Source: an uncultured Opitutaceae bacterium
Lineage (GTDB): Bacteria > Verrucomicrobiota > Verrucomicrobiia > Opitutales > Opitutaceae
Direction: 5' to 3'
Assembly (NCBI GenBank): GCA_903929355.1
Contig: CAIYUN010000057.1
Span: 62,001-126,000 of the forward strand
DNA: 64,000 nt
In this document: positions 1,636-19,810 of the stretch, piece by piece
Layout: the number at the start of each line of letters is the position of its first letter
Position numbering within the stretch: position 1 is the stretch's first letter
Program-made: the position numbers and the translations under genes
Notes under the pieces: model-generated
The model's database searches: none
Told to the model about the DNA's origin: nothing
What the model saw: the letters and a program-made list of their open reading frames with translations, nothing else

Positions 1636-2968
1636 CCGCGAGGCGGTGCGGGTGCGGCTGCACGCGCTCGGCTTTGACGAGGTGCGGTTTGCCCGCGTCG
1701 CCGGGGCGGACGCCGGCGCGGCGGCCTTGCGCGCGTGGCTCGACGCCGGCCGGCAGGCCGACATGGCGTGGATGGAACGCACCGCCGAAAAGCGCGCCGA
1801 CCCCGGACGCGTGCTGCCCGGCGCCCGCACGGTGATCATGCTCGGGGTGAATTACTGGGGGGGCGGCCGGCGGACAGACGCCAGAGGTCAGACGTCAGAG
1901 GTCAGAGGCCCGAAGCCAGACGCTGGAGGAAGGAGGGCAATCGGCGGCCGGGAGGGAGGGGATGGGGACGCAATCCAAATTCAAGATTCCAAAATCGAAA
2001 ATCCCCTCTGGGCCCGCTATGCGCTGCACGCCGACTACCACGACACGCTGAAGCCCGCGCTCGTCGCGGCCGGGCGGGTGCTGGAGGAGATCGCCGGCGC
2101 CGGGCCGGCCGACTACCGCTATTATGTGGACACCGGCCCGGTGCTGGAGCGCGGCTGGGCGGAGCGGGCGGGCATCGGGTTTCTCGGCAAGAACGCCATG
2201 CTCATCTCCCCCCGGCACGGCAACTGGCTGCTGCTCTCGGCCATCCTGACCGTGGTGGAGTTGGAGCCGGATGAGCCGCTGCGGAAAAAATCCCGGGGCC
2301 CTGCGCCCGGGAAGGAGACAGTCGGCCTGCTCTGCGGCAAGTGCTCGCGCTGCCTCGACGCCTGCCCCACGCAGGCCTTTGCCGCACCCGGGGTGGTGGA
2401 TGCGCGTCGTTGCATCTCCTATCAAACCATTGAAAACCGGGGCATCATCCCGCGCGAGCTGCGCCCGGGTATCGGCAACCATGTCTACGGCTGCGACGTG
2501 TGCCTGGAGGTCTGCCCGTGGAACCGCTTCGCCCAGGCCGGCCGGCGTGTGCTGCTCCAGGTGCGTGGCGGCATTGCCGCGCTCACGCTGTGCGAAATCC
2601 TCGAGCTCACCCCGGGCCGGTTCGCCGAGGTGTTCCGGGGCACCGCGATCAAGCGCCTGAAACTCGCCGGATTGTTGCGCAACGCCTGTGTGGTGGCGGG
2701 GAATCAGGGGTCAGAGGTCAGAGGTCAGAAGTCAGAGGTCATAGGTCAGAAGCCGGAGGCCAGACGGCAGGCAACGGAAGCAGGACGAGAGCAGACCGAG
2801 GAGTTGCTGGGGCCGTTGCTGCGGCTGGCGCTGCACCCGCTGCCGGTGGTGCGGGCGCACGCCGTGTGGGCGGTGTTTCGGTTGGGTGCCGGCGACCGGC
2901 TCGCCGCCGCGCGCGCGACCGAGACGGATCCGGCGGTGCTGGCGGAGTATGAGTTAGAGGGGAGCTAG
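1625..2968 (+). CDS. queG: Epoxyqueuosine reductase QueG with repeat-derived insertions
   Basis: Catalyses the last step of queuosine synthesis, reducing epoxyqueuosine in tRNA with cobalamin and two 4Fe-4S clusters. The signature DTGPVLERGWAERAGIGFLG with its catalytic Asp is present, as are the cluster motifs CGKCSRCLDACP (about residues 236-247) and CDVCLEVCP (about 289-297); a HEAT-like C-terminus follows. At 447 aa it is longer than usual (about 310-390). The surplus sits in two low-complexity blocks, roughly residues 82-130 and 358-395, encoded by GGTCAGA-type heptamer arrays and AATCCAAAATC-type text otherwise seen between genes. The frame is kept through both. It overlaps aroK, and its TAG stop shares the bases CTAG with the stop of the convergent neighbour. 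Confidence 0.93.
   Translation: MAADREAVRVRLHALGFDEVRFARVAGADAGAAALRAWLDAGRQADMAWMERTAEKRADPGRVLPGARTVIMLGVNYWGGGRRTDARGQTSEVRGPKPDAGGRRAIGGREGGDGDAIQIQDSKIENPLWARYALHADYHDTLKPALVAAGRVLEEIAGAGPADYRYYVDTGPVLERGWAERAGIGFLGKNAMLISPRHGNWLLLSAILTVVELEPDEPLRKKSRGPAPGKETVGLLCGKCSRCLDACPTQAFAAPGVVDARRCISYQTIENRGIIPRELRPGIGNHVYGCDVCLEVCPWNRFAQAGRRVLLQVRGGIAALTLCEILELTPGRFAEVFRGTAIKRLKLAGLLRNACVVAGNQGSEVRGQKSEVIGQKPEARRQATEAGREQTEELLGPLLRLALHPLPVVRAHAVWAVFRLGAGDRLAAARATETDPAVLAEYELEGS
1872..2012 (+). repeat. Intergenic-type repeat array inside queG (insert 1)
   Basis: Heptamers of the form GGTCAGA/CGTCAGA run from about 1872 to 1930, followed by AATCCAAATTCAAGATTCC-like text to about 2012. The same two text types occur outside genes at 11774-11907 and 34336-34378. 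They are translated here as a hydrophilic block between conserved parts of QueG. Confidence 0.7.
2707..2806 (+). repeat. GGTCAGA heptamer array inside queG (insert 2)
   Basis: About nine imperfect TCAGAGG units with a 7-base period. Because 7 and 3 are coprime, the reading frame cycles through all phases and gives a 7-residue repeat (SEVRGQK, then SEVIGQK). It lies in the C-terminal HEAT-like part, between conserved NACVVAGN and LLGPLLRLAL segments. Confidence 0.75.
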
Positions 2969-3522
2969 GTGTCCGGGGTCGTGCCGACGAGGTCCCCGTA
3001 ATGCTCCCGGGCACATTTTGGACAAAAAGAGTGGGTGAAATTCGCCTGGGAGTGGGCGGAAATGTACTTCTCCAGCTGCTGCCAGTTTTGATCCTCGTCC
3101 CGAATGCGTTTGCAGAAACAGCAAATCGGCAGGATCCCCTCCAGTTGAACAATTTTGCGTTCCAGCTCGCGTTTCTGCCGGACGGTACAGGCCAGATATG
3201 CGATCAGGACAAGCGCCACAATCCGGATGGCGGCATTGGCCATGATGAAGGACGGCGGGCTGGATTTCTCGAGGCTGGCCTCAATCACGGCCCGCCCGAG
3301 CGGGAGGATGACGCCGAGGATGAAGCCCATTCTGGCCGAGCAGAACCAAGCGGCAAGGCTGACCGGGACAACAAAGAGGCTGTCCAGCATCAGGAACTGC
3401 CCCGTCAACGCATCCAGCACCAGCAGCAGGCATCCAGTCAGCAGGTGAGTGGCGCGCCATCTGGCCGCGGCGAGTGCGCCACGAATCAAAGCCGGCGGTG
3501 GCGAGGGTGGGGCGGGGGACAT
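2965..3522 (-). CDS. Membrane protein with C-terminal CxxC...CPxC zinc-ribbon-like domain
   Basis: A 185-aa protein of unknown role. A Pro-rich start is followed by about four hydrophobic segments (roughly residues 22-105). A short charged coil (RQKRELERKIVQLEG) leads to a C-terminal motif with CCFCKRIRD, a W..LEKYIS core and CPKCAREHY. I recognise this cysteine module from the tails of PAS, GAF and receiver proteins, where it likely binds zinc; here it is attached to a membrane domain instead. The start is uncertain: ATG at 3522 is preferred because it opens just before the membrane part; ATG at 3609 and TTG at 3648 are open alternatives. It is convergent with queG, the two stop codons sharing CTAG. 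Confidence 0.75.
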   Translation of the reverse strand: MSPAPPSPPPALIRGALAAARWRATHLLTGCLLLVLDALTGQFLMLDSLFVVPVSLAAWFCSARMGFILGVILPLGRAVIEASLEKSSPPSFIMANAAIRIVALVLIAYLACTVRQKRELERKIVQLEGILPICCFCKRIRDEDQNWQQLEKYISAHSQANFTHSFCPKCAREHYGDLVGTTPDT

Positions 3523-3666
3523 GGGGTGGGCAGGCGCTGAGGGGGCGCGCGAAGCTGTCGTTGCTCCCCGTTGCCCTGCATGCACGAAGGATGACCAAAC
3601 CCGCCGCATTGTCGAGGGGAGGTTGGCGTCGGCGCCCCGGGGACACAAGGTGGACGGATGAGCGAA

Positions 3667-4068
3667 CTACCCGAACAGCGCCGCCATCTTCCCCGCGAAA
3701 TTTGCCGGCGGGCGGGTGGGGCGGCCCTCGCGGTCAATGAAGGCATGCACCGTGTGACCCGTGGCCAGCAGCTCGGCGGCCCGGAATACTTCATAGTCGA
3801 GCCGGATGCGGGCGACGGGCCGCTCGCGCAGGGTGGTGACAATCTCCAGCTCGTCGTCGTAACGGGCCGGGCGCAGGTAACGCGCCGAAACCTCCAGCAC
3901 GGGTAGGAAATAGCCGGCGGCCTCCAACTCGCGATAGGGCAGACCGTGCGCCTTGAGGAGGGCGGTGCGGCCGAGCTCAAACCAGGGCAGGTAGCTGCCA
4001 TGATAGGCCACGCCCATCATGTCGGTCTCGGCATAGCGGACGTTGAGGCTGGTGCGGGAGGAGAGCAT
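3667..4068 (-). CDS. YbgC/FadM-like acyl-CoA (acyl-ACP) thioesterase
   Basis: Single hot-dog-fold thioesterase (133 aa) expected to hydrolyse acyl-CoA or acyl-ACP thioesters. The family signature is clear near the N-terminus: RYAETDMMGVAYHGSYLPWFE, with the catalytic Asp in ETD and the YHGSY helix start. ATG at 4068 is chosen because the signature then begins about 10 residues in, as in YbgC; the longer frame to 4122 would run into the upstream gene. It starts 5 bases after the glycosyltransferase stop, so the two are an operon. The divergent neighbours (ACP-dehydratase, ketosynthase, reductase) make a role as chain-release enzyme of a dedicated acyl synthase plausible, though that is inference. 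Confidence 0.9.
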   Translation of the reverse strand: MLSSRTSLNVRYAETDMMGVAYHGSYLPWFELGRTALLKAHGLPYRELEAAGYFLPVLEVSARYLRPARYDDELEIVTTLRERPVARIRLDYEVFRAAELLATGHTVHAFIDREGRPTRPPANFAGKMAALFG

Positions 4069-4073
4069 GGTGG

Positions 4074-5222
4074 TCAGGCGGGTTCGGGCGGGGAGAACAG
4101 GAGCTCGGCGGAGCGGGTCCAACTATTGCGTGCGGCCCAGTCGCGGCCGGCGGTGCCGAGACGGTGGCGCAGGTCCGGATCGGTGAGCAGGCGGGCGAAC
4201 GCCGCGGTGAGCCGGCTGGGTTGGTGCGGGAAGACGAGCAGCCCGGTGACATGATCCACGACCGCCTCGGACACGCCGCCGACCGTGTGCGCGACCACGG
4301 GCAGACCGTGCGCGGCCGCCTCGAGGTACACCAGGCCGAAGCCCTCCACGCTGTGGCCGTGGTCGATGCTCGTCAGGGAAAAGATATCGGCCTGGTCGTA
4401 AACCGCATCGAGCTCCGCGTCGGACAGGTCGCCGAGGAATTTGACCACAAAACCCGCGTGGGCGGCCGCCGCGCGGAGGGTTTTCTCGTAGTGCGGGCGG
4501 CTGGCGGTGCCGACGATCCAGTATTCGAGACCGGCGCGGAGCGCGGGCGGCAGCGCCTGCAGGGCCTGAAGGGTGAGGAGCTGGCCCTTGCGCGGGTGCA
4601 GGCGGCCGACCGTGAGCACGACCGAGCGACCGGCCGGGCCGGGTCGGGCGGCTGCGGCACGGTCGGCGGCGAAACCGGTGCGGAGCGCCCCGGGGGTGAG
4701 AAAGGTTTTGGCCGTGGCGGCGGGGAAGCGGGCGCAGAGGAGGCGCTTCGTGTAGTGGGTGAGCGTGCTGATCCGGTCGGCGTGGCGGATGAGCCGCCGG
4801 GTGAGCAGGCGCAAAGACGGCCGGTGGTGAAACCGCAGGATTTCGGAGCCGTGAAACGTGAGCACCAGCCGGCGCGGGCGGAAGGCGTGGAAAAACTGCA
4901 GGGTCATCAGCGTGAGCATGGGGCCCGGCTCGGGCAGATAGACGGTGGCATGGCGGAGCCGGCGCCGGTGCCGGATCAGCTCGCGGGCGAGCTGGAGCTG
5001 GCAGCCGAAGTTGTGGGTGCCCCGGACGGCGGGCAGGCGGCGCACGCGGAACGGCCAGGATTTCTCCGGCGGCCCGCCGCCCGGCAGGGCCGGGGCCCAC
5101 ACTTCGACGTCATGGCCCAGCCCGGTGGCGGCTCCCGCGATTTCCTCGGCAAACGTCGCGATGCCGCCCCGTTGCGGGTGGAACTCGTGCGTAAGGAGGT
5201 AGACCGGCGGCGAGGAGGCCAT
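4074..5222 (-). CDS. Glycosyltransferase family 4
   Basis: A 382-aa GT-B fold, retaining glycosyltransferase. The N-terminal domain opens with the acceptor-side motif HEFHPQRGGIATFAEEIA (residues 12-29). The C-terminal nucleotide-sugar domain has VGRLHPRKGQ and the EX7E-type segment SVEGFGLVYLEAAAHGLPVV typical of GT4. There is no signal peptide or membrane segment, so it works on the cytoplasmic face. Donor and acceptor cannot be read from sequence. It heads a two-gene operon with the thioesterase and is divergent from the ACP-dehydratase gene across 144 bases, which suggests that it glycosylates the lipid made by that cluster. Confidence 0.93.
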   Translation of the reverse strand: MASSPPVYLLTHEFHPQRGGIATFAEEIAGAATGLGHDVEVWAPALPGGGPPEKSWPFRVRRLPAVRGTHNFGCQLQLARELIRHRRRLRHATVYLPEPGPMLTLMTLQFFHAFRPRRLVLTFHGSEILRFHHRPSLRLLTRRLIRHADRISTLTHYTKRLLCARFPAATAKTFLTPGALRTGFAADRAAAARPGPAGRSVVLTVGRLHPRKGQLLTLQALQALPPALRAGLEYWIVGTASRPHYEKTLRAAAAHAGFVVKFLGDLSDAELDAVYDQADIFSLTSIDHGHSVEGFGLVYLEAAAHGLPVVAHTVGGVSEAVVDHVTGLLVFPHQPSRLTAAFARLLTDPDLRHRLGTAGRDWAARNSWTRSAELLFSPPEPA

Positions 5223-5366
5223 CGGGAGGAACCCTATCGGCCCACCCTGGGCGGCTCAAGCTGCAATCCGCGGCACCTGTGGGACGCGGCCTGACACGGC
5301 CGACCCGGGTTGGGCTGGAAAATAGCATTTACAACCAGGCGGGCGCGGGCGTTATTTGACCCAGTC

Positions 5367-6359
5367 ATGCCCGAACCCGCACTTCCCGTCGCGCCGTCTG
5401 TCGGCAAAACCTTCCCGCCCGAGGCCGAGGCAGCCATCCGCGACAGCTTGAAGCGTTGCTCGTCGTCGACCATTGAGGCGGCCGTGGGTTATCGCCGGGA
5501 TGGTGACACGCGGCATCTGCCGGCGATCATCATCGGGATTGTGGAGCGGTTTGTGGAGCCGGATTTGCGCGCCCGGCTCGGCACCGGCGACGACGACCTG
5601 CGTTTTGTCGAGGATCTGGGCATCGATTCGCTCACCATGATGGAGATCGTGATCCTGGTGGAGGAGGTGGCGCAGCTGCAGATCCCGAATGACGACCTGC
5701 GGAACCTGCGCACCCTGAGCGACGTGAAAACCTACATTGACTGCCGGGCGCGCGGACTGCCCCCGCCCAAGCCGAGCAAGTTTTTCGCCATCGAGGATCT
5801 CGTCGCCCTGATGCCGGTCCAGCCCCCATTTCTGTTTCTCAACGAAGCGTCGGTCAGCGCCGCCAGCGCCTCGGGCAAATACAAGATCACCGGCCAGGAG
5901 TTTTTTCTCCAGGGCCACTTCAAGGACAATCCGGTCATGCCCGCCTCGATCATGCTGGAGGCGCTCGGGCAGCTGGGGGTGCTCCACCTGCTCGCCGGCC
6001 ATGTGGTGGCCGAGCCGGGAAAGGTGGTCGGCTCCGGCACCATTTTCTTCACGGGTTGCGAGGGCGTGCGCGCCCACCGCGTCTGCAAGCCCGGTGATGT
6101 CCTCACCCTGTCCATCAAGCCGAAGCGCATGAAGCTGCCCCTCGCCACCTTTGAGGGCAGTGTGCGCGTCGGCCAGGAAAAGGCGGTCATGGCGGAGGAG
6201 ATCACGCTGACCTACGGCTATGTGGAGGCGGTGGTGCCGGTTGTGGCCTTGCCCCCGGCGGAGACCAACGGTGTCGGCCCCAACGGGGCGAACGGGCTTA
6301 ACGGCGTGAATGGTTCGGCGCACGACCCGCATGACGCGCCCGTCACCGGCCGCGTCTAG
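5367..6359 (+). CDS. Acyl carrier protein - FabZ-like dehydratase fusion
   Basis: A two-domain protein (330 aa). Residues 50-130 are an acyl carrier domain with the phosphopantetheine site DLGIDSLTMMEI (Ser88). Residues 150-300 are a hot-dog 3-hydroxyacyl-ACP dehydratase with GHFKDNPVMPASIMLEALGQ (His184, Glu about 200), matching the FabZ catalytic helix. The C-terminus is a Gly/Asn-rich tail. ATG at 5367 is used because the frame upstream has no domain; the segment before the ACP (1-45) is of unknown use. Fusing carrier and dehydratase would tether the substrate. The ketosynthase and reductase follow on the same strand. An AT-rich stretch at 5320-5360 (including TTTACA at 5328-5333) may carry the promoter, but no clear -10 element was identified. 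Confidence 0.92.
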   Translation: MPEPALPVAPSVGKTFPPEAEAAIRDSLKRCSSSTIEAAVGYRRDGDTRHLPAIIIGIVERFVEPDLRARLGTGDDDLRFVEDLGIDSLTMMEIVILVEEVAQLQIPNDDLRNLRTLSDVKTYIDCRARGLPPPKPSKFFAIEDLVALMPVQPPFLFLNEASVSAASASGKYKITGQEFFLQGHFKDNPVMPASIMLEALGQLGVLHLLAGHVVAEPGKVVGSGTIFFTGCEGVRAHRVCKPGDVLTLSIKPKRMKLPLATFEGSVRVGQEKAVMAEEITLTYGYVEAVVPVVALPPAETNGVGPNGANGLNGVNGSAHDPHDAPVTGRV

Positions 6360-6480
6360 GTCGCTGGTGGTAGAAGGGCCGGCGGGCCGCCCCCGCCCCT
6401 CCCTTCCGTCCCGCCGTCTTCGCCCGCATTTTTCGCTTTAAGGTCGCGCGGGTTTCCCGACGATGGGGCACTCCTCGGGC

Positions 6481-7740
6481 ATGCCCAAAGTTTTCATCAC
6501 CGGACTCGGCTTCATCACCAGCATCGGCAACGACGCGACCACGGTCGGCGACAGCCTGCGGGCGTTGCGGCATGGCATCGTCCGCTACCCGCCGTTCGAC
6601 CACCCCAGCGTGCCGGTCAAGGTCGCCGCGCCGGTGCGGGAGTTTCAGACCGAGGCGGAGGACTGCGAGGACTGGACGCTGCCCGCCCGCTACCGCGTGC
6701 GCCGCGAGGTGCTCCGCAGCCTCGGCCCCGGCTCGCTCTACGCCCATTGCGCCCTGCTGCAGGCCATCGAGGACGCGCGGCTGACCGACGCCGATGTGTC
6801 CAACGACGGCACCGGGCTTTACGCCGCCTCCGCCGGCTCGCCGGGCATCCTCACCCGGCACGTCACCCGCATGCACGAGCAGGGGGTGATGCGCTGCCCG
6901 CCGCTCGGCATTGTGGCCAGCATCGCCGGCACGGTGCAGTTCAACCTGGTGGCCCATTTCAAGATCAAGGGCGCCTCGACCGGTTTTTCCTCGGCCTGCG
7001 CCTCATCCTCCCATGCGGCCGGCTTCGCCCATGACGAGATCGCGCTCGGTCGCCAGCACCGGATGTTCGTGATCGGCGCGGAGGACGGCAACGTCGAGAC
7101 CATCCTGCCGTTTGCCGGCATGCGGGCGCTGTCGCTCAACCCCGATCCCGACACCGCCTCACGGCCTTTCGATGTCGCCCGGGATGGTTTTGTGGGCACC
7201 GGTGGCGCGACCGTGCTCGTCCTGGAGAGCGAGGCCGAGGTCCGGCGCCGGGGCGTCACGCCCTATTGCGAGCTGCTTGGCTGGGGCCAGGCCTCCGACG
7301 GCCACAATGTCGCCATCTCCCACCCCGAGGGGGCCGGTCTCGCCCACGCCATGCGCCGGGCGCTCCAGGCCTCCGGCCGCACCACGGCCGAGGTTGACCA
7401 CATCAACGCCCACGCGACCTCCACCCCCATCGGGGATATCTCGGAATGCCGGGCGCTGCACGCCGTGCTCGGGGCCGAGGCGGCGCGGGTCGCCGTGAGC
7501 AGCACCAAGGCGTTGACGGGTCACGGGCTCTCGTTGGCGGGGGCGATGGAGACCGGCTTTTGCGCCCTCGCTTTGCGGGACGGCTTCATCCCCGGCTCGG
7601 CGCACATCCACCAGCTCGACCCGGCCTGTGCGGGCCTCAACATCCCGCGCGTCACCCGGCCGACCGCGCCCCGCGTGGTGCTCAACAACAGCAGCGGCTT
7701 CGGCGGTGCCAACGTGTGCCTGGTGCTGCAACGCGCCTGA
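6481..7740 (+). CDS. Beta-ketoacyl-ACP synthase (FabF/KAS II type)
   Basis: Condensing enzyme with a thiolase fold (419 aa) that extends acyl chains using malonyl-ACP. The Cys-His-His triad is intact: Cys173 in FSSACASSS, His311 in NAHATSTPIGD and His348 in LTGHGLSLAG; the C-terminal NNSSGFGGAN loop is also conserved. ATG at 6481 gives the usual start just before the first strand (KVFITGLG); ATG at 6463 adds six residues. It lies 121 bases after the ACP-dehydratase fusion and 13 bases before the SDR. The setting beside a dehydratase fusion and a thioesterase points to a specialised acyl or polyene pathway rather than housekeeping FabF. Confidence 0.95.
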   Translation: MPKVFITGLGFITSIGNDATTVGDSLRALRHGIVRYPPFDHPSVPVKVAAPVREFQTEAEDCEDWTLPARYRVRREVLRSLGPGSLYAHCALLQAIEDARLTDADVSNDGTGLYAASAGSPGILTRHVTRMHEQGVMRCPPLGIVASIAGTVQFNLVAHFKIKGASTGFSSACASSSHAAGFAHDEIALGRQHRMFVIGAEDGNVETILPFAGMRALSLNPDPDTASRPFDVARDGFVGTGGATVLVLESEAEVRRRGVTPYCELLGWGQASDGHNVAISHPEGAGLAHAMRRALQASGRTTAEVDHINAHATSTPIGDISECRALHAVLGAEAARVAVSSTKALTGHGLSLAGAMETGFCALALRDGFIPGSAHIHQLDPACAGLNIPRVTRPTAPRVVLNNSSGFGGANVCLVLQRA

Positions 7741-7753
7741 GCCCCGCCCGATC

Positions 7754-8584
7754 ATGGCCCAACGTCTCGCCGAACTTTACCCGACCGCCTTTGTCACCGG
7801 CGCCAGCACGGGTCTGGGGCGGGCGTTTGCCGAGATGCTGCTCGCCGAGGGCGTGCGGGTCTGGGGCACCGCGCGCGATCCGGCGAGGCTGGCGGAGCTC
7901 GCCCGGCACCCACACTTCACCCCGGTCGCGCTTGAACTCCGCGCGGGTGCCGCGGCCGAGGCCGCGTTCCAGGCTGCGGCGGTGGCGGCCGGTGGTGCGT
8001 TTGCCCTGGTGATCAACAATGCCGGTTACGGCGTGTTCGGGGACTTTGCCGCGACGGATTTTGCGGTCTGGCAGGAGCAGATGGAGGTGATGCTCATCAA
8101 CACCGCCCGGCTCGCGCATGCCGCCCTGCGCGGGATGCGCGCCGCCAATCGGGGCGCGCTGGTCAACATCTCCTCGCTCGCGGCGGAGTTCCCGCTGCCG
8201 TTCCAAAGCGCCTACAACGTCACCAAGGCCGGCCTGACCGCGCTCAACGAGAGCCTCATGATTGAGACGGCGGGCACGGGCCTCGTGGTGCTGGATGTCC
8301 GGCCGGGCGATTACCGCACCGACTTTGAAGGCTCGGTCCGCCGTCCGGCGGGTGCGACGACCCCGCGCATGGAACGCGCCTGGGCCGCGTTTGGCCGCAT
8401 GATGCTCACGGGCCCGGAGCCCGCCCACGCCGCGGCCGCGCTGCGGCGCGCGCTGCTGCGTCGGCGCAGCGGCACGGTGCGCTGCGGGCGTTTTTTCCAG
8501 GCGGTCATGGCGCCGCTGCTTTCCCGCCTCGGATCCCTGCCGCTGCGGCGCCGGATCCAGGCCAAGTATTTCGACCTGGGTTGA
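7754..8584 (+). CDS. SDR-family NAD(P)-dependent reductase
   Basis: Classical short-chain dehydrogenase/reductase (276 aa). It has the dinucleotide motif TGASTGLGRAFA near residues 14-25, NNAGYG near 90, catalytic Ser about 140 in NISSLAAE, and Tyr154/Lys158 in SAYNVTKAG. The C-terminal 40 residues extend beyond FabG length and carry a basic amphipathic segment. ATG at 7754 is preferred over in-frame starts inside the ketosynthase gene. It follows the ketosynthase by 13 bases, so it probably reduces the 3-ketoacyl chain made there; an unrelated alcohol or sugar substrate cannot be excluded. Confidence 0.9.
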   Translation: MAQRLAELYPTAFVTGASTGLGRAFAEMLLAEGVRVWGTARDPARLAELARHPHFTPVALELRAGAAAEAAFQAAAVAAGGAFALVINNAGYGVFGDFAATDFAVWQEQMEVMLINTARLAHAALRGMRAANRGALVNISSLAAEFPLPFQSAYNVTKAGLTALNESLMIETAGTGLVVLDVRPGDYRTDFEGSVRRPAGATTPRMERAWAAFGRMMLTGPEPAHAAAALRRALLRRRSGTVRCGRFFQAVMAPLLSRLGSLPLRRRIQAKYFDLG

Positions 8585-8680: not shown

Positions 8681-10858
8681 TCACAAAATCAAATCCGGCG
8701 GGACGTTCGACAGCGCCTCCTCGATCGTGGTCAGCCCCATCTTCACCTTGAGGATGCTGTCCTGGTGGAGGGTTTTCATGCCGTTCTTCATCGCGATGCG
8801 TTTCAGATGCGCGACCTCGACCTCCTTGTTGATGCCCTCGGTCAGTTCCTCGCTGTTGACCATCAGCTCATGGATGCCGACGCGGCCCTTGTAGCCGGTG
8901 CCGCCGCAACTGGGGCAACCCTGCGGGTTGGCCTTGAAAATCTGGCCGCTCCAGCCGATGGCCTTCTCGATCAGATCCTTTTCGCGGCCCTCCGGCTCGA
9001 AGGGCTGCTTGCAATTTTTGCAGACCCGGCGGAGCAGACGCTGGGCGCAGACACACACCAAGGACGCGGAGATGTTGAAGGGCTCGACCCCCATCTCGCC
9101 GATACGCGCGACGGTTGAGGGCGCGTCGTTGGTGTGCAGGGTGGACACCAGCAAGTGGCCCGTCAGTGCGGCCTCGACCGCGATGCCGGCGGTCTCCTCG
9201 TCGCGGATTTCACCGACGAGGATGATGTCGGGGTCCATGCGGAGGTAGCAGCGCAGCGCCCGGGCAAAGGTCAGGCCGATGGCCCGGCTCATCTGCATCT
9301 GGTTGATGCCGGCCAGCGTGTACTCGATGGGATCCTCGGCCGTCTGGATGTTGACGTCGGGGGTGTTCACCTCGCCGAGCGCGGAATAGAGCGTCATGGA
9401 CTTGCCGGAGCCGGTGGGGCCGCAGTGGAGGATCATCCCGTAGGGCTGGCGGATGCACTCGCGGTACCGGGCCAGGTTCTCGTCGGAGAACCCGAGCGCC
9501 GGCAGGGGCAGGGTGGACTTGGACTTGTCCAGGATACGCATGACGACCTTCTCGCCGTCCTTCATCGGGCCGGTGGCGACGCGCAGATCGATGTCGATGT
9601 TCTTCTTGGTGTATTTCTTGAAGACAATGCGGCCGTCCTGCGGCAGGCGCCGCTCGGCGATGTCGAGGTTGCACATGATCTTCAGGCGGGTGACCATGGC
9701 GTTGGTGACCTGCTTGGGCAGGCGGAGCTTCTCCTGACAGAGGCCGTCGATGCGGTACCGGATGAGCAGGTCCTTCTCCATCGGCTCGATGTGGATGTCG
9801 GACGCCCCGGACACATAGGCGTCCTCGATGATGCGGTTGGTCAGCTGGATGATGGGCGCGGAGTCCTCGCTCTCGAGGTCGCTGGCGCTGATCTCGCCGC
9901 CGCCGTCGCTGTTGTAGGCGGTGCTGATGACCTCGGCGACCGAGCTGATGTCCACATCCCCCTCCTGCGCGCCGGGCTTGGACTCCTTGAAGAATTTTTT
10001 GACGAGAGCCTCGATGAGCGTGGCGGGGGCGACCCGCACCTCCTCGATGACGAGCTCGCTGGCCTGCTGGAACGCCTCGCGTTTGGCGTAGTCGAGGGGG
10101 TTGGCCATCAGCACGGCGACCGTGTTGGGCGAGATGCGCTTGTGCGGGAACACACCCTCGCGGCGGATGAGTGCGTCGCCGACGACCTCGACGAGCTTCT
10201 CGTCGATCTCGATCTCCTCGGGCTTGGTGACGAGCGGGAGATCGGTGAGCTTGGCGACAAATTTGGCGGTGTCCTCGGAACTCAGCTGGAACTTCGGGTC
10301 CATCATGCGCTGGAGCAGGGTGGAGGAATACTCGGCGACCTCCTGGAGCAGGGTGAGGTCGTTGTCGGTGAAGCTGCCGCCCGTGCCGCTGGACGGCTCC
10401 TTGTTCAGCACCTGGATCGCGCCGATGACGATGTTGGTCTTGAGCGGCACCGTGAGCATGGAGCGCACCTCAAACCCGGTGGTCTGCGTCATCGACGTCA
10501 TGAAGGGCACCTGCGTCTCGGTGTTGCGGAAGAACACCGGCGCGCCCGAGCTGATCACCCGGCCGACGATGCCCTTGCCCAGCGGGAGCTTGAGCGCGAG
10601 CAGCTTGGCGGCGGTTTCCTTGAACTGGGTCTCCTTGGCCTTGTTGTCACCCCAGAGGGTGGGGGAGTAGTAAACATGCCGGAAAATGATGTCATTGCCC
10701 TCGACCAGGTACATGGTCATGGACTGCGCCTGCAACGCCTCGACGACCTTGGAGGCGCTCAGCTCGACGACCGACTGCAAATCCTCGCGGCTGGGGGCCG
10801 GTTTGGAAATGACCTTGATGAGCAGCGACCGGCGCAACGCATGCGCGATCGCCGCCAT
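8681..10858 (-). CDS. GAF-domain type II/IV pilus secretion ATPase (PilB/GspE family)
   Basis: Cytoplasmic hexameric ATPase that drives pilin or pseudopilin assembly (725 aa). Residues about 20-185 form a GAF domain ([34 protein letters not shown]). A MshEN/T2SSE N-terminal-like region covers about 215-310 and the ATPase about 340-710. The ATPase has Walker [12 protein letters not shown] near residue 478, Walker [14 protein letters not shown], the [13 protein letters not shown] motif, and a CxxC pair ([20 protein letters not shown]) for structural zinc. ATG at 10858 begins the domain structure; the longer frame is only low-complexity sequence antisense to yraN. The GAF sensor at the front is unusual for classical PilB. 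No other pilus genes are adjacent; a pilin-like gene lies 43 kb away. Confidence 0.93.
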
Positions 10859-11477: not shown

Positions 11478-11909
11478 GCCAGCGCCGATTCATTAGAAAT
11501 ACAAAACAATGATTATGAGAGACAAAACATCATTTAGAAACCCAGGATGAAAACTTTCCGAACGGGCGGATTTGAACCACTGATGGACACTGATTCTGAG
11601 GGTCGGATAAGTGCAAATTAGTGTGCATAAGTGGTTAAAGATTTTTGTCTGGCTAGGTCAAAGGCGAAAGGCAAGCCCTGATGGCCTCGATATTCTTCTC
11701 TTCGTGAATCAGCAGTGGCCTTGAGCCGGGTCGCTCGAAATTGCATGGCTTTAGTTGGCTTCGTCGCCATTTTCCGACCTTCGACCTTCGACCTTCGACC
11801 TCCGACCTTCGACCTCCGACCTCCGACCTTCGACCTCCGACCTCCGACCTTTGACCTTCGACTTTCGACCTTCGACTTCTGACTTACGGCGTCTGACCTC
11901 TGATCCACA
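11478..11909. repeat. Intergenic region with CTTCGAC/CTCTGAC heptamer array
   Basis: A 432-base gap. Positions 11570-11640 carry degenerate CACTGATGGACACTGATT and AAATTAGTGTGCATAAGTGG text. Positions 11774-11907 are about nineteen 7-base units, mainly CTTCGAC, CTCCGAC and CTCTGAC, ending only a few bases before the prlC ATG. The array is read as open frame on the minus strand (KSKVEGRR-like), but this is not a gene. No promoter could be identified with confidence. Confidence 0.8.
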
Positions 11910-15511: not shown

Positions 15512-15832
15512 CGGCCGTTTGAGAGGCGTCTTCCCGCTCCGGGAATTTCTTCCTAAATTCAGCAATTGGACACAGAGATCATTGAGATAAAATCCGAGTT
15601 CACAGAGCAGAAATGCATCGGAAGGAGGGAAGATTTGGATGTCACCCGGCGGGTGTCGGTATTGCAGCCACCATTGAGTCTTTACGTGGTTTGCTCTGTG
15701 AACTCTGTGTCTGCACTCGGTGTTCTCTGGGTATTCCTTCCGCGCATTTTAAGTTCATCTCAAAATAACCCTTCCGGCATTTGCCACCGTCGGTCTTTTG
15801 TGCTGCGCTCATTTCCGCCTCCCCCCACCCTG
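15512..15832. repeat. Intergenic region with dispersed CACAGAGATAAAA repeat, copy 2
   Basis: Positions 15554-15655 hold ATTGAGATAAAATCCGAGTT followed by CACAGAG, GAAATGCATCGGAAG and GTCACCCGGCGGGTG, matching the copies near 22.2 and 52.6 kb. Positions 15680-15725 repeat GCTCTGTGAACTCTGTGTC-type text. The rest (15730-15832) is the leader of the hydrolase gene; no gene is seen. Confidence 0.7.
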
Positions 15833-17278
15833 ATGAAAACCCCGGCATGCCTCCTTGCCTTGATCGCGGCCTTTGGCGCCTGCGCCTTCGCCCAAACGCC
15901 CTCCACGGCGTCTTCGCCCACCCTTCCCGCCATCCGCGTTTCGGACAATGGCCGCGCCTTTGTGCGCACCGACGGCACACCGTTCTTTTGGCTCGGCGAC
16001 ACCGCCTGGTGCATTTTCAACCATCCCTCACCCCAGGACGTGGACCTTTACCTCGACGACCGCCAGGCCAAGGGTTTTACCGTCATCCAGGGTTGCGTTG
16101 CCGTTTGGGACTTCCGCAACCATCGCAACCCCGACGGCCAGCTGCCTTTCACCGGCACCGACCCGACTGGGATCAACGACGCCTATTTCAAGAACGTGGA
16201 CAGCATCATCGCCAAGGCCGCCGCCCGGGGTCTTTATGTGGCGCTGCTGCCATTCTGGACCAAGAACACGCGTACCGGTCCGTTCGCCGATCCCGCCGGG
16301 ATGCAGGGGTATTGCCGCTATCTCGCGAAACGCTACGCGGGAAAAAATATTTTCTGGGTCCTCGGCGGCGACACGGCGGGCACCGACATCCAGCCCGTGA
16401 TTGACGCCGAGGCCGCCGGTCTGCTCGCGGGCGCCAAGGAGGCCGGCATGGCCAAAATCATGATCACCTACCATCCGACCGGGAGGCAGAGCTCGTCGTT
16501 TTGGTTCCAGGATCGCCCTTGGCTCGATTTCAATGCGATCCAGTCCGGCCACTTCATCAATACCACCAATTTCCAGATCGTCGGCGGCGACTTCGCCAAG
16601 ACCCCCGTCAAGCCGACCTTGGACATGGAGCCGGGTTACGAGAACATCACCAACAACCTGGTGCGGACCAATGTCACGGCCGCCACCCCGCGGATCCAGG
16701 CTGTCGATGTCCGCCGCTCCGCCTATCTCGCGGTCTTCGCCGGCGCCGCCGGCCACACCTACGGCAACGGCGAGGTGTACGAGTTCTTCCATCCCGCCCC
16801 CGATGGCGCTCCGCCACCGGGCAACGCCGGCTGGCATGCCAACATGGATTGGAAGGACGCCCTCAAGCTTCCCGCTTCCGGCCAGGTGCAGTTCCTCCGC
16901 TATCTGGTTGAGTCCCGGCCGATGCTGGAGCGCATCCCCGACCAGTCCCTCCTCGCCGGCACCGTCTCCAACCGCGCCGTCGATCGCCTCGCCGCCACCC
17001 GCGGCACCAGCGGGCGTTATGCTTTCATTTATCTACCGGCCGGGCAGACCGGGGTCACCGTCAACACCAGCGGGCTGTCCGGCACGACACTTGCCGCCTG
17101 GTGGTATGACCCGCGTACCGGTGGGGCGAAGGCGGCGGAAACCTTTGCCAAGGCCGCCACCCACAGCTTTACCCCGCCCACGGCCGGTCCGGGCGACGAC
17201 TGGGTGCTCGTGCTCGATGACACTGCGGCCAAATTTCCGCCGCCGGGCCGCGCGCCGCCGACGACTGCGGGGCGTTGA
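15833..17278 (+). CDS. DUF4038 apiosidase-like glycoside hydrolase (GH140-like), secreted
   Basis: A 481-aa exported (beta/alpha)8-barrel enzyme. It has a signal peptide (MKTPACLLALIAAFGACAFA), then the typical DUF4038 opening with DGTPFFWLGDTAW (about residues 43-55), VLGGDTAGTD near 182 and LDMEPGYEN near 264, which hold likely catalytic carboxylates. The last 100 residues match the putative collagen-binding or C-terminal beta domain that follows DUF4038. GH140 members act on apiose in rhamnogalacturonan II; that substrate is a family guess. ATG at 15833 is chosen because it starts the signal peptide. A GH2 gene follows after 96 bases. Confidence 0.88.
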   Translation: MKTPACLLALIAAFGACAFAQTPSTASSPTLPAIRVSDNGRAFVRTDGTPFFWLGDTAWCIFNHPSPQDVDLYLDDRQAKGFTVIQGCVAVWDFRNHRNPDGQLPFTGTDPTGINDAYFKNVDSIIAKAAARGLYVALLPFWTKNTRTGPFADPAGMQGYCRYLAKRYAGKNIFWVLGGDTAGTDIQPVIDAEAAGLLAGAKEAGMAKIMITYHPTGRQSSSFWFQDRPWLDFNAIQSGHFINTTNFQIVGGDFAKTPVKPTLDMEPGYENITNNLVRTNVTAATPRIQAVDVRRSAYLAVFAGAAGHTYGNGEVYEFFHPAPDGAPPPGNAGWHANMDWKDALKLPASGQVQFLRYLVESRPMLERIPDQSLLAGTVSNRAVDRLAATRGTSGRYAFIYLPAGQTGVTVNTSGLSGTTLAAWWYDPRTGGAKAAETFAKAATHSFTPPTAGPGDDWVLVLDDTAAKFPPPGRAPPTTAGR

Positions 17279-17374
17279 CCCGTTCTCCCGCACTGATCTG
17301 TCCGGCACCGGGAAAGAATCCTGTCCCTCCAGTTCCGGCTGGGTACTGCGGTTGGTCTCCTTCACCTTTTGCCC

Positions 17375-19810
17375 ATGAACAGCCGCTTCCCCCTCCCTGT
17401 CGTTCTCTTGTGTTTTCTGGCGCTCGTTTGCCGCGGCGCCGAAAGTCCGCCGCCCATCTCAGCTTCGGCCAGGACCGTGGTGGATTTCGATTTTGGCTGG
17501 CGGTTTGCCCTGAGCGATTCCCCGATGGCGATGCAGCCCAAGTTTGACGACGCCGGCTGGCGTCAGGTCAATGTGCCGCATGACTGGAGCATCGAGGGCC
17601 CGTTCAGTGCTTCGTATGGCAGCGGCAACGGCTACGCTCCCGGCGGCATCGCCTGGTATCGCCGGCATTTTCAGATGAAGCCCGCGGACCGCGGCCGGTT
17701 CGCCACCTTGGTGCTTGACGGGGTCTACGACAATGCCGAGGTCTGGCTCAACGGTTTCCGGGTGGGCGGTCGCCCGTATGGTTTTGAGAGCTTCAGCTGC
17801 GATTTGACGCCCTACCTTAAATTTGGCGCCAATGACAATGTCCTGTCGGTTCGGGTGGACCACTCGCGGTTTGCGGACTCCCGCTGGTATACCGGCTCGG
17901 GCATCTACCGCAACGTCCGCCTCCTGATGACGGACCCATTGCACCTGGACCTTTGGGGCACCTTTGTCACCACTCCGTCGGTCGCGGCCGGTTCGGCCAC
18001 GGTCCGGGTCGAGACTGCGGTCGAAAACAGCTCGGCCCGCAGCCTGACCTTCAGCCTGCAATCCGACCTGGTCGGGTCGGACGGCCAGGTTGTGGCGAGC
18101 GGTACCACGCCGCCGGGTACCGTCGAGGCCGGCCAAAGCCAGTCGCTCGTTCAGACCCTGACCATCACCCAGCCGCAACTTTGGTCGCCGGACACGCCGG
18201 CGCTTTACACCCTGCGCAGCCGGGTGAGCGCCGAGGGCGCCGTCACGGATGAGACCACCACGGTCTTTGGGGTGCGCTCGGTGGTGTTCGACCCCGGCCA
18301 TGGTTGTTTGCTCAACGGGACTTCGGTGAAACTGAAAGGCGTGTGCGTTCACCAGGACGGCGGCAGCGTGGGGGTGGCGATCCCGGTTCCGATCTGGGAG
18401 CGACGGCTGCGTGAATTCAAGAAACTGGGAATCAACGCGATACGAACCAGCCACAACCCGCCCGGACCGGAGTTTCTGGACCTTTGCGATCGGCTGGGAT
18501 TTCTGGTGATGGACGAGTCCTTTGACGAGTTCACCCCCGCCAAGAACAAATGGGTGGTGGGTTGGAATCAGGGGGTCCCGGGCCACTTTGGCTACAGCGA
18601 CGACTTCGTCGATTGGTCGGTGCGGGACGTTTCGGACATGGTGCGCCGCGACCGCAACCATCCCAGCATCGTGATGTGGAGCATTGGCAATGAGATCGAC
18701 TACCCCAACGATCCCTTCACCGACCCGGCCTTGGGCCGGGACTACCGGCCGGGCAACCCGCCGGGCACGGACTTGGTCAAATGGGGCCGCCCGCTGGTGG
18801 CGGCCGTCAAGCAACTGGACTCCACCCGTCCGGTGACGGCCGCCATGGCTAGCCTCACGATGTCCAACGCGGTGGGCTTTGCCCAGATCCTCGACGTCGC
18901 CGGCTACAACTATCAGGAGTCCCGGTATGCGGTGGACCACCAGAAGTATCCCGAGCGGGTCATTTACGGCAGCGAGAACACGCATGATCTGGCCTCGTGG
19001 CTGGCGGTGCGTGACAATCCCATCATCAGCGGCCAGTTTTTGTGGACGGGCATTGATTATTTGGGCGAGGCCCGGGCCTGGCCGGATCGCGCCATGCCCG
19101 ACGGGCTCATGGACCTGTGCGGGTTCGTCAAACCCCTCGGCCGCTTCCGCCAGAGCCTGTGGAGCAGCCAGCCGATGGCTTATTTGTGTGTGGCGAAAAC
19201 CGCCAGACTGCCGAACCCGCCCAACGACACCAAGATGCCGACCGGCACCGAGAGCTGGAACTGGCCGGGGTCCACGCCGCTCTTCGTCACCTGCTACACG
19301 AACTGCCCCGACGTGACCCTCACCCTGAATGACCAGCCTTTGGGGACCAGGCATCTTGCAGAGGCCGTGGGTGGCGTGCTGGTCTGGCCCGTGCCCTACG
19401 CCCCCGGGGTGTTGAAGGCGGTCGGAGCCAAGGATGGCAGGACGTTGTGCGAGTTTGCACTCACCACCGCCGGCCCCGCCAACCGGATCGAGCTCCACCC
19501 CTGGGCGCCGGAGCTGCGGGCCGATGGCAAGGATGTCAGCCAGGTGGAGTTTGACGTGGTGGACGCCCAGGGGGTGCGGGTGCCCGATGCGGATCAGGAG
19601 CTGACCTTTGAGTTGAGCGGCCCGGCAACGATCCTGGGCTTGGGCAACGGCGACCCGGCCAACAGCGAGCCCGTGCGCGGTCCGGCCCACCGGGTGGCCG
19701 AAGGCCGCGGGCTGGCCATCATTCAATCCTCCACTACCCCGGGCCAGATCACGCTCAAGGTCTCCGCCCCCGGATTGCAGCCCGCAGTCTTGACGCTGAC
19801 CAGCCGCTAG
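17375..19810 (+). CDS. Glycoside hydrolase family 2 (beta-galactosidase-like), secreted
   Basis: An 811-aa GH2 enzyme with a signal peptide (cleavage probably after about residue 22, CRGAES). The order is sugar-binding jelly roll (about 30-190), immunoglobulin-like domain (190-290) and catalytic barrel (300-600), then C-terminal DUF4982-like and Ig domains. The acid/base Glu is in WSIGNEID (about residue 439) and the nucleophile Glu in YGSENT (about 533). TSHNPPGPEFLDLCDRLG is the classic GH2 barrel motif. It may act on beta-galactosides or related glycans. ATG at 17375 is used; a TTG two codons upstream is less likely. It lies in tandem with the DUF4038 enzyme, suggesting joint breakdown of a plant polysaccharide side chain. 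Confidence 0.93.
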   Translation: MNSRFPLPVVLLCFLALVCRGAESPPPISASARTVVDFDFGWRFALSDSPMAMQPKFDDAGWRQVNVPHDWSIEGPFSASYGSGNGYAPGGIAWYRRHFQMKPADRGRFATLVLDGVYDNAEVWLNGFRVGGRPYGFESFSCDLTPYLKFGANDNVLSVRVDHSRFADSRWYTGSGIYRNVRLLMTDPLHLDLWGTFVTTPSVAAGSATVRVETAVENSSARSLTFSLQSDLVGSDGQVVASGTTPPGTVEAGQSQSLVQTLTITQPQLWSPDTPALYTLRSRVSAEGAVTDETTTVFGVRSVVFDPGHGCLLNGTSVKLKGVCVHQDGGSVGVAIPVPIWERRLREFKKLGINAIRTSHNPPGPEFLDLCDRLGFLVMDESFDEFTPAKNKWVVGWNQGVPGHFGYSDDFVDWSVRDVSDMVRRDRNHPSIVMWSIGNEIDYPNDPFTDPALGRDYRPGNPPGTDLVKWGRPLVAAVKQLDSTRPVTAAMASLTMSNAVGFAQILDVAGYNYQESRYAVDHQKYPERVIYGSENTHDLASWLAVRDNPIISGQFLWTGIDYLGEARAWPDRAMPDGLMDLCGFVKPLGRFRQSLWSSQPMAYLCVAKTARLPNPPNDTKMPTGTESWNWPGSTPLFVTCYTNCPDVTLTLNDQPLGTRHLAEAVGGVLVWPVPYAPGVLKAVGAKDGRTLCEFALTTAGPANRIELHPWAPELRADGKDVSQVEFDVVDAQGVRVPDADQELTFELSGPATILGLGNGDPANSEPVRGPAHRVAEGRGLAIIQSSTTPGQITLKVSAPGLQPAVLTLTSR

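Follow-up and report, generated by a model that had tools for sequence, protein, structure and literature searches.

In a 64,000-nucleotide stretch of DNA from an uncultured Opitutaceae bacterium (assembly GCA_903929355.1, contig CAIYUN010000057.1, positions 62,001 to 126,000 of the forward strand; hereafter the window, meaning the whole stretch), positions 3667-8584 hold five open reading frames (ORFs) that resemble parts of a lipid pathway. An earlier note had recognized in them a hot-dog thioesterase (TE), a glycosyltransferase of family 4 (GT4), an acyl carrier protein (ACP) fused to a FabZ-like dehydratase, a beta-ketoacyl synthase (KS) and a short-chain dehydrogenase/reductase (SDR). All five frames are open at this place, and Pfam and NCBIfam searches bore out all five assignments. 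On the minus strand lies a YbgC/FadM-type TE (3667..4068; PF13279, 2.9e-18; TIGR00051, 76.4 bits, above the cut-off of 68.7), whose frame reaches upstream to TTG 4122 and which, by our reading of the sequence, probably starts at ATG 4068. It is followed on the same strand by the GT4 gene (4074..5222; PF00534, 2.5e-34; probable start 5222), which diverges from the gene for the ACP-dehydratase fusion. The plus strand carries the fusion (5367..6359; PF00550 PP-binding, 5.9e-6, and PF07977 FabA/FabZ, 2.1e-14; probable start ATG 5367), a KS of a clade of its own (6481..7740; PF00109 and PF02801; probable start ATG 6481) and a classical SDR (7754..8584; PF00106, 1.8e-32), the probable ATG of which, at 7754, lies 13 bases past the KS stop. 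The nearest NCBIfam matches of the SDR are general oxidoreductases, with KdsR at 94.7 bits (cut-off 400) and FabG at 90.7 bits (cut-off 222); a YxxxK motif is present by eye, and the protein is a candidate 3-ketosphinganine or 3-ketoacyl reductase. We consider it moderately probable that these genes provide the acyl chain and the glycosylation steps for a (glyco)sphingolipid pathway.

With its start at 5367, the fusion has Ser88 and His184 exactly where the earlier note had placed them, and Glu198 completes a FabZ-type His/Glu site. These three residues are identical in all 24 aligned fusions. FabA carries an Asp in place of the FabZ Glu, which none of the 24 does. The protein consists of extra N-terminal helices (residues 18-45), the ACP, a FabZ hot-dog domain and a low-complexity tail. 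An AlphaFold model (mean predicted local distance difference test score 84.4) has the ACP followed by the hot-dog fold, with two further confident helices, at residues 18-27 and 33-45, ahead of the ACP. The top match of the model in the PDB is FabZ (3az8, 3.2e-12), which agrees with the conserved dyad in marking the second half as a dehydratase of FabZ type; the fusion lies under the FabZ equivalog cut-off (65 vs 113 bits). When the ACP part was modelled alone, solved ordinary ACPs matched it weakly over about 80 of 132 residues (best 3.5e-3), and the 50 best structure matches for this part included no solved relative of the N-terminal helices.

The earlier note had called the fusion a departure from the standard FabZ architecture. 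Within the family the arrangement is the standard one, since 136 of the 150 family genomes sampled have the fusion, or a split ACP and dehydratase. In this count the fusion was scored as absent where the best family match was weaker than 1e-40 (14 genomes, including G106 at 2e-20 and G109 at 2e-31), and genomes with split genes (G005, G053 and G118) and partial matches at contig ends were scored as present. Across a phylum sample of 337 genomes, 39 contained the fusion at 1e-20, all from the same family, order or class; one of these matches (G393) covers the dehydratase part only. A named scan returned 520 fusion-encoding stretches, the best 80 of which have titles that name metagenome assemblies of Verrucomicrobia, in many cases Opitutae, Opitutaceae or Opitutus. 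Stand-alone ACPs akin to that of the fusion were also seen at four loci (L087, L088, L089 and L090, at about 9480-10230); the two that were aligned have the N-terminal extension, and the neighbours, named by eye, are sigma factor-, FecR- and TonB receptor-like.

The KS has the intact Cys-His-His triad reported before (Cys173, His311 and His348), which together with Lys343 is kept in 19 of 19 aligned KSs. Its family motif is NSSGFGG, with Ser for the Phe of NSFGFGG in both FabB and FabF of E. coli. In trees the window KS joined the same-locus KSs of relatives and was separated from FabF at 100/100 support; the nearest reference was E. coli FabB, itself a long branch. The first tree was built without ApeC, two duplicates and KS-like locus sequences shorter than 400 residues, and the second additionally without ApeO, ApeR, the KS of contig C62, L197_7728 and a duplicate of L252; each locus sequence was trimmed to its C-terminal 440 residues, and the outgroup of the second tree did not fall on one side of a branch. 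With the KS family profile, the 17 best PDB matches were 14 beta-ketoacyl-ACP synthases I (KAS I) and three untyped structures at 345-385 bits, and the best KAS II reached 324 bits, whereas the window KS alone hardly distinguished FabF from FabB (308 vs 302 bits). Its identity is 36% both to E. coli FabB and to the FabF of its own genome, and 29-34% to ApeR and ApeO. Family members also have KSs at a second locus, which are 55-63% identical to the window KS and form one supported group with it, the inner order of which is open; hence both systems share an ancestor. Six small ACP-KS pairs of this second-locus clade (L178, L180, L181, L188, L191 and L194) have no further aryl-polyene genes adjoining.

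By Pfam, the genome contains three KS genes, namely the window KS, a FabF-like gene and a gene on contig C62, and no KS of the second-locus clade was found among them. The FabF-like KS on contig C25 is 48% identical to E. coli FabF and lies beside genes that we read as an ACP and FabG. On contig C22, a FabZ gene adjoins a gene that matches the enoyl reductase family FabI best, neither reaching its curated cut-off, and contig C9 has a FabZ match within a frame of 482 residues, which we take for an LpxC-FabZ fusion. The cluster is thus a second fatty-acid system beside the genome's own fab genes. A housekeeping identity was rejected on the presence of these separate genes (FabZ-FabI on C22, FabG-ACP-FabF on C25). 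The earlier note had said that its reading would fail if the KS and SDR grouped with FabF and FabG; the KS does not group with FabF, and the FabG score of the SDR is under the cut-off. Its statement that an enoyl reductase is missing applies to the cluster but not to the genome, which has the FabI-type gene next to FabZ; the lack is therefore local. The third KS of the genome (L002, C62:92429-93151) lies beside an ORF that by eye resembles a phytoene-desaturase-type FAD oxidoreductase.

The surroundings of the cluster in relatives point to what it may serve. In its fullest form, the operon runs from the fusion through KS, SDR, a family 28 glycosyltransferase (GT28) and two further GT4 genes, after which comes a gene resembling serine palmitoyltransferase (SPT). 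Genomes such as G003, G004, G006 and G020 have the complete series AroK, QueG, TE, GT4, fusion, KS, SDR, GT28, GT4, GT4 and a convergent SPT-like gene. Among 21 family loci, counting our own and one contig of 7.4 kb, GT4 was found in 20, KS in 20, SDR in 13, GT28 in 11, TE in 11 and SPT in 8 within the stretch fetched, and the homologue of the window GT4 lies divergently beside the fusion in 16 of 20 loci compared. The block SDR-GT28-GT4-GT4-SPT, with an SDR of the type found in the window cluster, stays intact in three genomes in which fusion and KS are located elsewhere (G048, G078 and G101). A KS match at 1e-90 is present in 38 of the 39 fusion-positive phylum genomes, not always at the same locus, so the fusion does not as a rule occur alone in other genomes, which the earlier note had named as a finding that would speak against it. 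Its proposal of a dedicated, probably glycosylated lipid cluster with conserved co-occurrence is supported.

The convergent gene of the relatives encodes an alpha-oxoamine synthase; its best family is serine palmitoyltransferase and its best structure is the SPT of Sphingobacterium multivorum. The genome of the window has such a gene as well (C50:34259-35452; 73% identical to the query), and the link was missed by the earlier note because this copy sits on another contig. The best NCBIfam match of the encoded protein is SPT (353 bits; 388 bits for the copy at L043), and its best PDB match is S. multivorum SPT (3a2b, 5.2e-89). All 28 aligned relatives retain the catalytic His, Asp, His and Lys; a sequence of 317 residues was excluded from this count. 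A residue comparison with S. multivorum SPT, drawn with the help of a passage in PMC10196870, showed that Asn52, His138, Ser185, Asp210, His213 and Lys244 are kept. A route to sulfonolipids was considered and rejected, as the cysteate acyltransferase structure scored 193 bits and SPT 302.

We then compared the presence of the fusion and of SPT across the family sample (SPT match threshold 1e-80), in which 96 of the 150 genomes are at least 95% complete and 122 at least 90%. Among the 96, 91 encode both SPT and the fusion (or split ACP and dehydratase), five encode neither and none encodes one alone (Fisher p 1.6e-8, a value that ignores shared ancestry). The five genomes without both belong to three genera, namely g44 (G044, G098 and G135), g17 (G061) and g40 (G148), and each genus has sampled members with both (G075 and G118; G017; and G040, G074, G096 and G116, respectively). 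They are 2.9-4.9 Mb in size and also lack the cluster-type KS; the best remaining KSs are of the second-locus clade in G044, G061 and G148 and only FabF-like, at 1e-60, in G098 and G135. The joint absence across three genera is a better argument than the Fisher value. In the phylum sample, in which SPT was taken as at least 54% identity (44 genomes matched at 1e-80, and nine at 37-44% were dropped), 34 genomes have both genes, five the fusion only (G257, G265, G296, G357 and G393) and one SPT only (G292), with G393 scored as fusion-positive and G292 as fusion-negative. In 22 of the 34, fusion and SPT are on one contig, and in 17 they lie at most 15 kb apart. A dedicated ACP is thus linked to SPT throughout the 96 most complete family genomes, with exceptions outside the family.

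What carries the assignment to a sphingolipid pathway is the set of genes, their intact active sites, their conserved order in relatives and their joint presence or absence with SPT. The enzymatic steps, the direction of the hand-off, the class of lipid and its sugars are predicted from sequence, and the following scheme is meant in that sense. The KS would extend an acyl chain on the ACP of the fusion, with housekeeping enzymes supplying malonyl-ACP and any missing reduction, and the FabZ half would dehydrate the 3-hydroxyacyl intermediate carried by its partner ACP. Once complete, the acyl-ACP would be passed to the SPT-like alpha-oxoamine synthase encoded on C50, which would join the chain to serine. 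The SDR could then reduce the resulting 3-keto base, or else serve the chain cycle, and the GT4, in relatives together with GT28 and two more GT4 enzymes, would add sugars. We are less certain of the exact acyl hand-off than of the pathway assignment.

Several known systems offer parallels. In Proteobacteria, passages of a study of sphingolipid synthesis describe a dedicated ACP that serves SPT, SPTs that prefer acyl-AcpR and a synthetase, AasR, that loads the acyl chain (PMC9386255). The window system resembles this AcpR/AasR/SPT system of Caulobacter and E. coli BL21 in having a dedicated ACP that co-occurs with SPT, and by analogy the ACP of the fusion may be a dedicated carrier with a role like that of AcpR. 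Its architecture is unlike AcpR, as it is fused to FabZ, has extra N-terminal helices and has a KS as companion; BL21 AcpR aligned with the window ACP family at 94.8% probability over 47 columns in hhalign, which any ACP might give. No AasR-type ligase was seen among the recurring neighbours of window-type loci. An AMP-ligase cluster (c12) was absent from all 33 fusion loci, and none was noticed beside SPT, though not every neighbour was scanned. Instead, the KS and dehydratase would take the place of AasR, with the chain built on the carrier. Passages on the sphinganines made by a polyketide synthase in Pseudomonas fluorescens MYb115 (SgaAB; PMC12134224) show that an SPT-like synthase can be supplied by enzymes that build the chain. 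The likeness lies in the pairing of such enzymes with an SPT-like alpha-oxoamine synthase; in SgaAB a single-protein polyketide synthase is adjacent to that synthase, whereas the window has separate type II enzymes and an ACP-dehydratase fusion, with its own SPT on another contig. In Bacteroides, an SDR performs ketosphinganine reduction, according to a passage in PMC9278070, and by analogy the window SDR may be a ketosphinganine reductase. Relative to the type II fatty acid synthase, the fusion shares the FabZ fold with its His/Glu site and the KS family is nearest FabB; unlike a housekeeping synthase, the cluster exists beside separate FabZ-FabI and FabG-ACP-FabF genes and has the KS motif NSSGFGG. 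Rhizobia have an acpXL-fabZXL-fabFXL cluster for very-long-chain acyl groups, with a dedicated ACP, FabZ and KS that are not fused and with lipid A as product. As in that system, a dedicated ACP, a FabZ and a KS would provide for one special envelope lipid, but the window ACP and FabZ are fused. The carrier architecture is what is new here; sphingolipid synthesis with a dedicated ACP is known.

A number of observations weigh against a sphingolipid role. The score of the SPT-like protein is under the curated cut-off (353 vs 640 bits) and the BioF/Kbl profiles come close at 341 bits, which is why we call the gene SPT-like, and the protein has GSLSKS for the GTFSKS of S. multivorum SPT and Ala for Ser81. 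In the genome itself, the 20 kb around SPT have nothing else in common with the loci compared, and GT28 is present only as a 39% identical relative on contig C29. A search for a homologue of the E. coli N-acyltransferase YghO, run without a positive control, returned none in eight genomes. The association with SPT also has exceptions: with completeness of at least 90%, 112 genomes have both, four the fusion only, one SPT only and five neither, and among all 150, incomplete ones included, the numbers are 128, eight, four and ten. At the order level, four genomes (G257, and G265, G296 and G357 of genus g54) have the fusion or split ACP and dehydratase together with the KS, and their best SPT relative is 28-36% identical; the module can therefore exist without SPT. 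Conversely, SPT-type enzymes occur in the phylum without the fusion: nine genomes (G198, G202, G262, G298, G344, G374, G406, G435 and G454) matched SPT at 1e-80, with identities of 37-44%, but did not match the fusion at 1e-20. Finally, G292 has SPT and a KS, and its ACP belongs to the same family as that of the fusion, but no dehydratase of this family adjoins it, so the dehydratase half is not obligatory.

We weighed four other explanations. The cluster could be a FabA/FabB-like branch that makes unsaturated fatty acids without oxygen for general membrane lipids, with the SPT link secondary. This would explain the order-level genomes with ACP, dehydratase and KS but no SPT, and it fits the preference of the KS profile for KAS I structures and the position of FabB as the nearest tree reference; FabZ-type isomerases exist. 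We nevertheless think it unlikely, since FabB sits on a long branch, the window KS by itself hardly splits FabF from FabB, the catalytic Glu198 is that of FabZ in every aligned fusion, and a general branch would not be expected to vanish together with the cluster KS and SPT from five near-complete genomes. Less probable still is that the module supplies not the substrate of SPT but the amide-linked (N-acyl) chain of the sphingolipid, or a hydroxylated one. The same co-occurrence evidence applies to it, a 3-hydroxyacyl-ACP should arise in the module and the fusion and KS can sit far from SPT, but no N-acyltransferase candidate was found, and the YghO search came back empty in the eight genomes. 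It is very improbable that the glycosyltransferases form an ordinary exopolysaccharide or lipopolysaccharide locus, that the fatty-acid genes are a spare fatty acid synthase and that the association with SPT reflects shared ancestry only. The GT4 proteins do match EpsE and other polysaccharide models, and family members share a history, so the counts are not independent; against this stand three genera in which some members lack fusion and SPT jointly and others have both, with 0 of 96 genomes discordant, the size of the five both-absent genomes and the proximity of fusion and SPT, within 15 kb, in half of the both-positive phylum genomes.

The earlier note had itself suggested an unsaturated or hydroxylated, perhaps glycosylated, lipid by analogy with aryl-polyene-type pathways. 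We now regard a cluster for an aryl-polyene-type or polyunsaturated, glycosylated lipid as quite improbable, if slightly less so than the polysaccharide explanation. Aryl-polyene and flexirubin-type clusters, such as that of E. coli CFT073, share with the window a KS, a dehydratase, an ACP, a reductase, a TE and a glycosyltransferase, and the second-locus KSs that group with the window KS belong in part to aryl-polyene-like clusters. The CFT073 cluster, by annotation, further has a chain-length factor, an AMP ligase, MMPL, LolA and a family 2 glycosyltransferase (GT2), and none of these turned up when 14 ORFs of the window were scanned with Pfam, a scan that ended at the upstream edge of the window. 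Gene clusters of aryl-polyene-like type were absent from all 33 fusion loci, the window KS is 29-34% identical to ApeR and ApeO, and three of the genomes without fusion and SPT (G044, G061 and G148) retain a second-locus KS. The analogy fits poorly, and membership was rejected on the absent hallmark genes and the KS placement. Separate clusters of this kind do exist in relatives. One, at L187, has by Pfam a halogenase-like FAD protein, two ACPs, a KS, GT2, LolA, MMPL and an AMP ligase, as well as KS-like proteins that may be chain-length factors. Whole or partial aryl-polyene/flexirubin-like clusters were seen at L187, L179, L192, L193, L196 and L197 within the family and at L182, L185 and L195 within the order; those other than L187 were identified by similarity.

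Within a sphingolipid role, the product might depend on the stage at which the chain leaves the carrier. The pairing of a dehydratase with no enoyl reductase of its own may then be significant. If the trans-2-enoyl-ACP from the fusion were given unreduced to the SPT-like enzyme, 3-keto-4E-sphingosine would result, because C2 of the acyl chain ends up as C4 of the long-chain base, and a true sphingosine could arise without the oxygen-dependent desaturase of eukaryotes. CqsA of Vibrio is an alpha-oxoamine synthase that accepts an enoyl thioester. We regard such a hand-off as doubtful, and the arrangement in G292, with SPT and ACP but no adjoining dehydratase of this family, speaks against it as a rule. 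If the sphingolipid assignment is true, Opitutaceae would make glycosphingolipids from a self-contained chain module with a new ACP-dehydratase carrier, the formation of 4-unsaturated sphingoid bases without oxygen would become testable, and there would be a genetic handle on what Verrucomicrobiota with SPT-like genes may make. A passage in a Black Sea study lists 22 Verrucomicrobiota genomes with such genes (PMC11334938). Our literature search, outside which most subscription papers lay, returned nothing that ties SPT-like genes of Verrucomicrobiota, or Opitutaceae, to an ACP-dehydratase/KS module. One article contains both 'Opitut' and 'sphingolipid', and the passage found in it reports sphingolipids only for Bacteroidetes and Chlorobiales (PMC7203096).

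Two further possibilities for the cluster were discarded: spread by plasmids, as a search of PLSDB gave a single weak match to FabZ, and a defence function, as a PADLOC scan of four proteins returned no families. Next to the TE, the minus strand of the window carries an ORF of 227 residues (2965-3648) with no Pfam family over the cut-off; its C-terminal part has a 32% identical match in L043. The QueG ORF of the window contains two in-frame tandem repeats of 7/14/21 bases (1875-1923 and 2704-2764) and is 447 residues long, compared with 377-429 residues for the uncut ORFs of nine relatives. Another 7-base array is found at 11775-11876, upstream of an M3 peptidase gene, and positions 15566-19810 hold a tandem pair of genes for an apiosidase-like glycoside hydrolase and a protein of family GH2.

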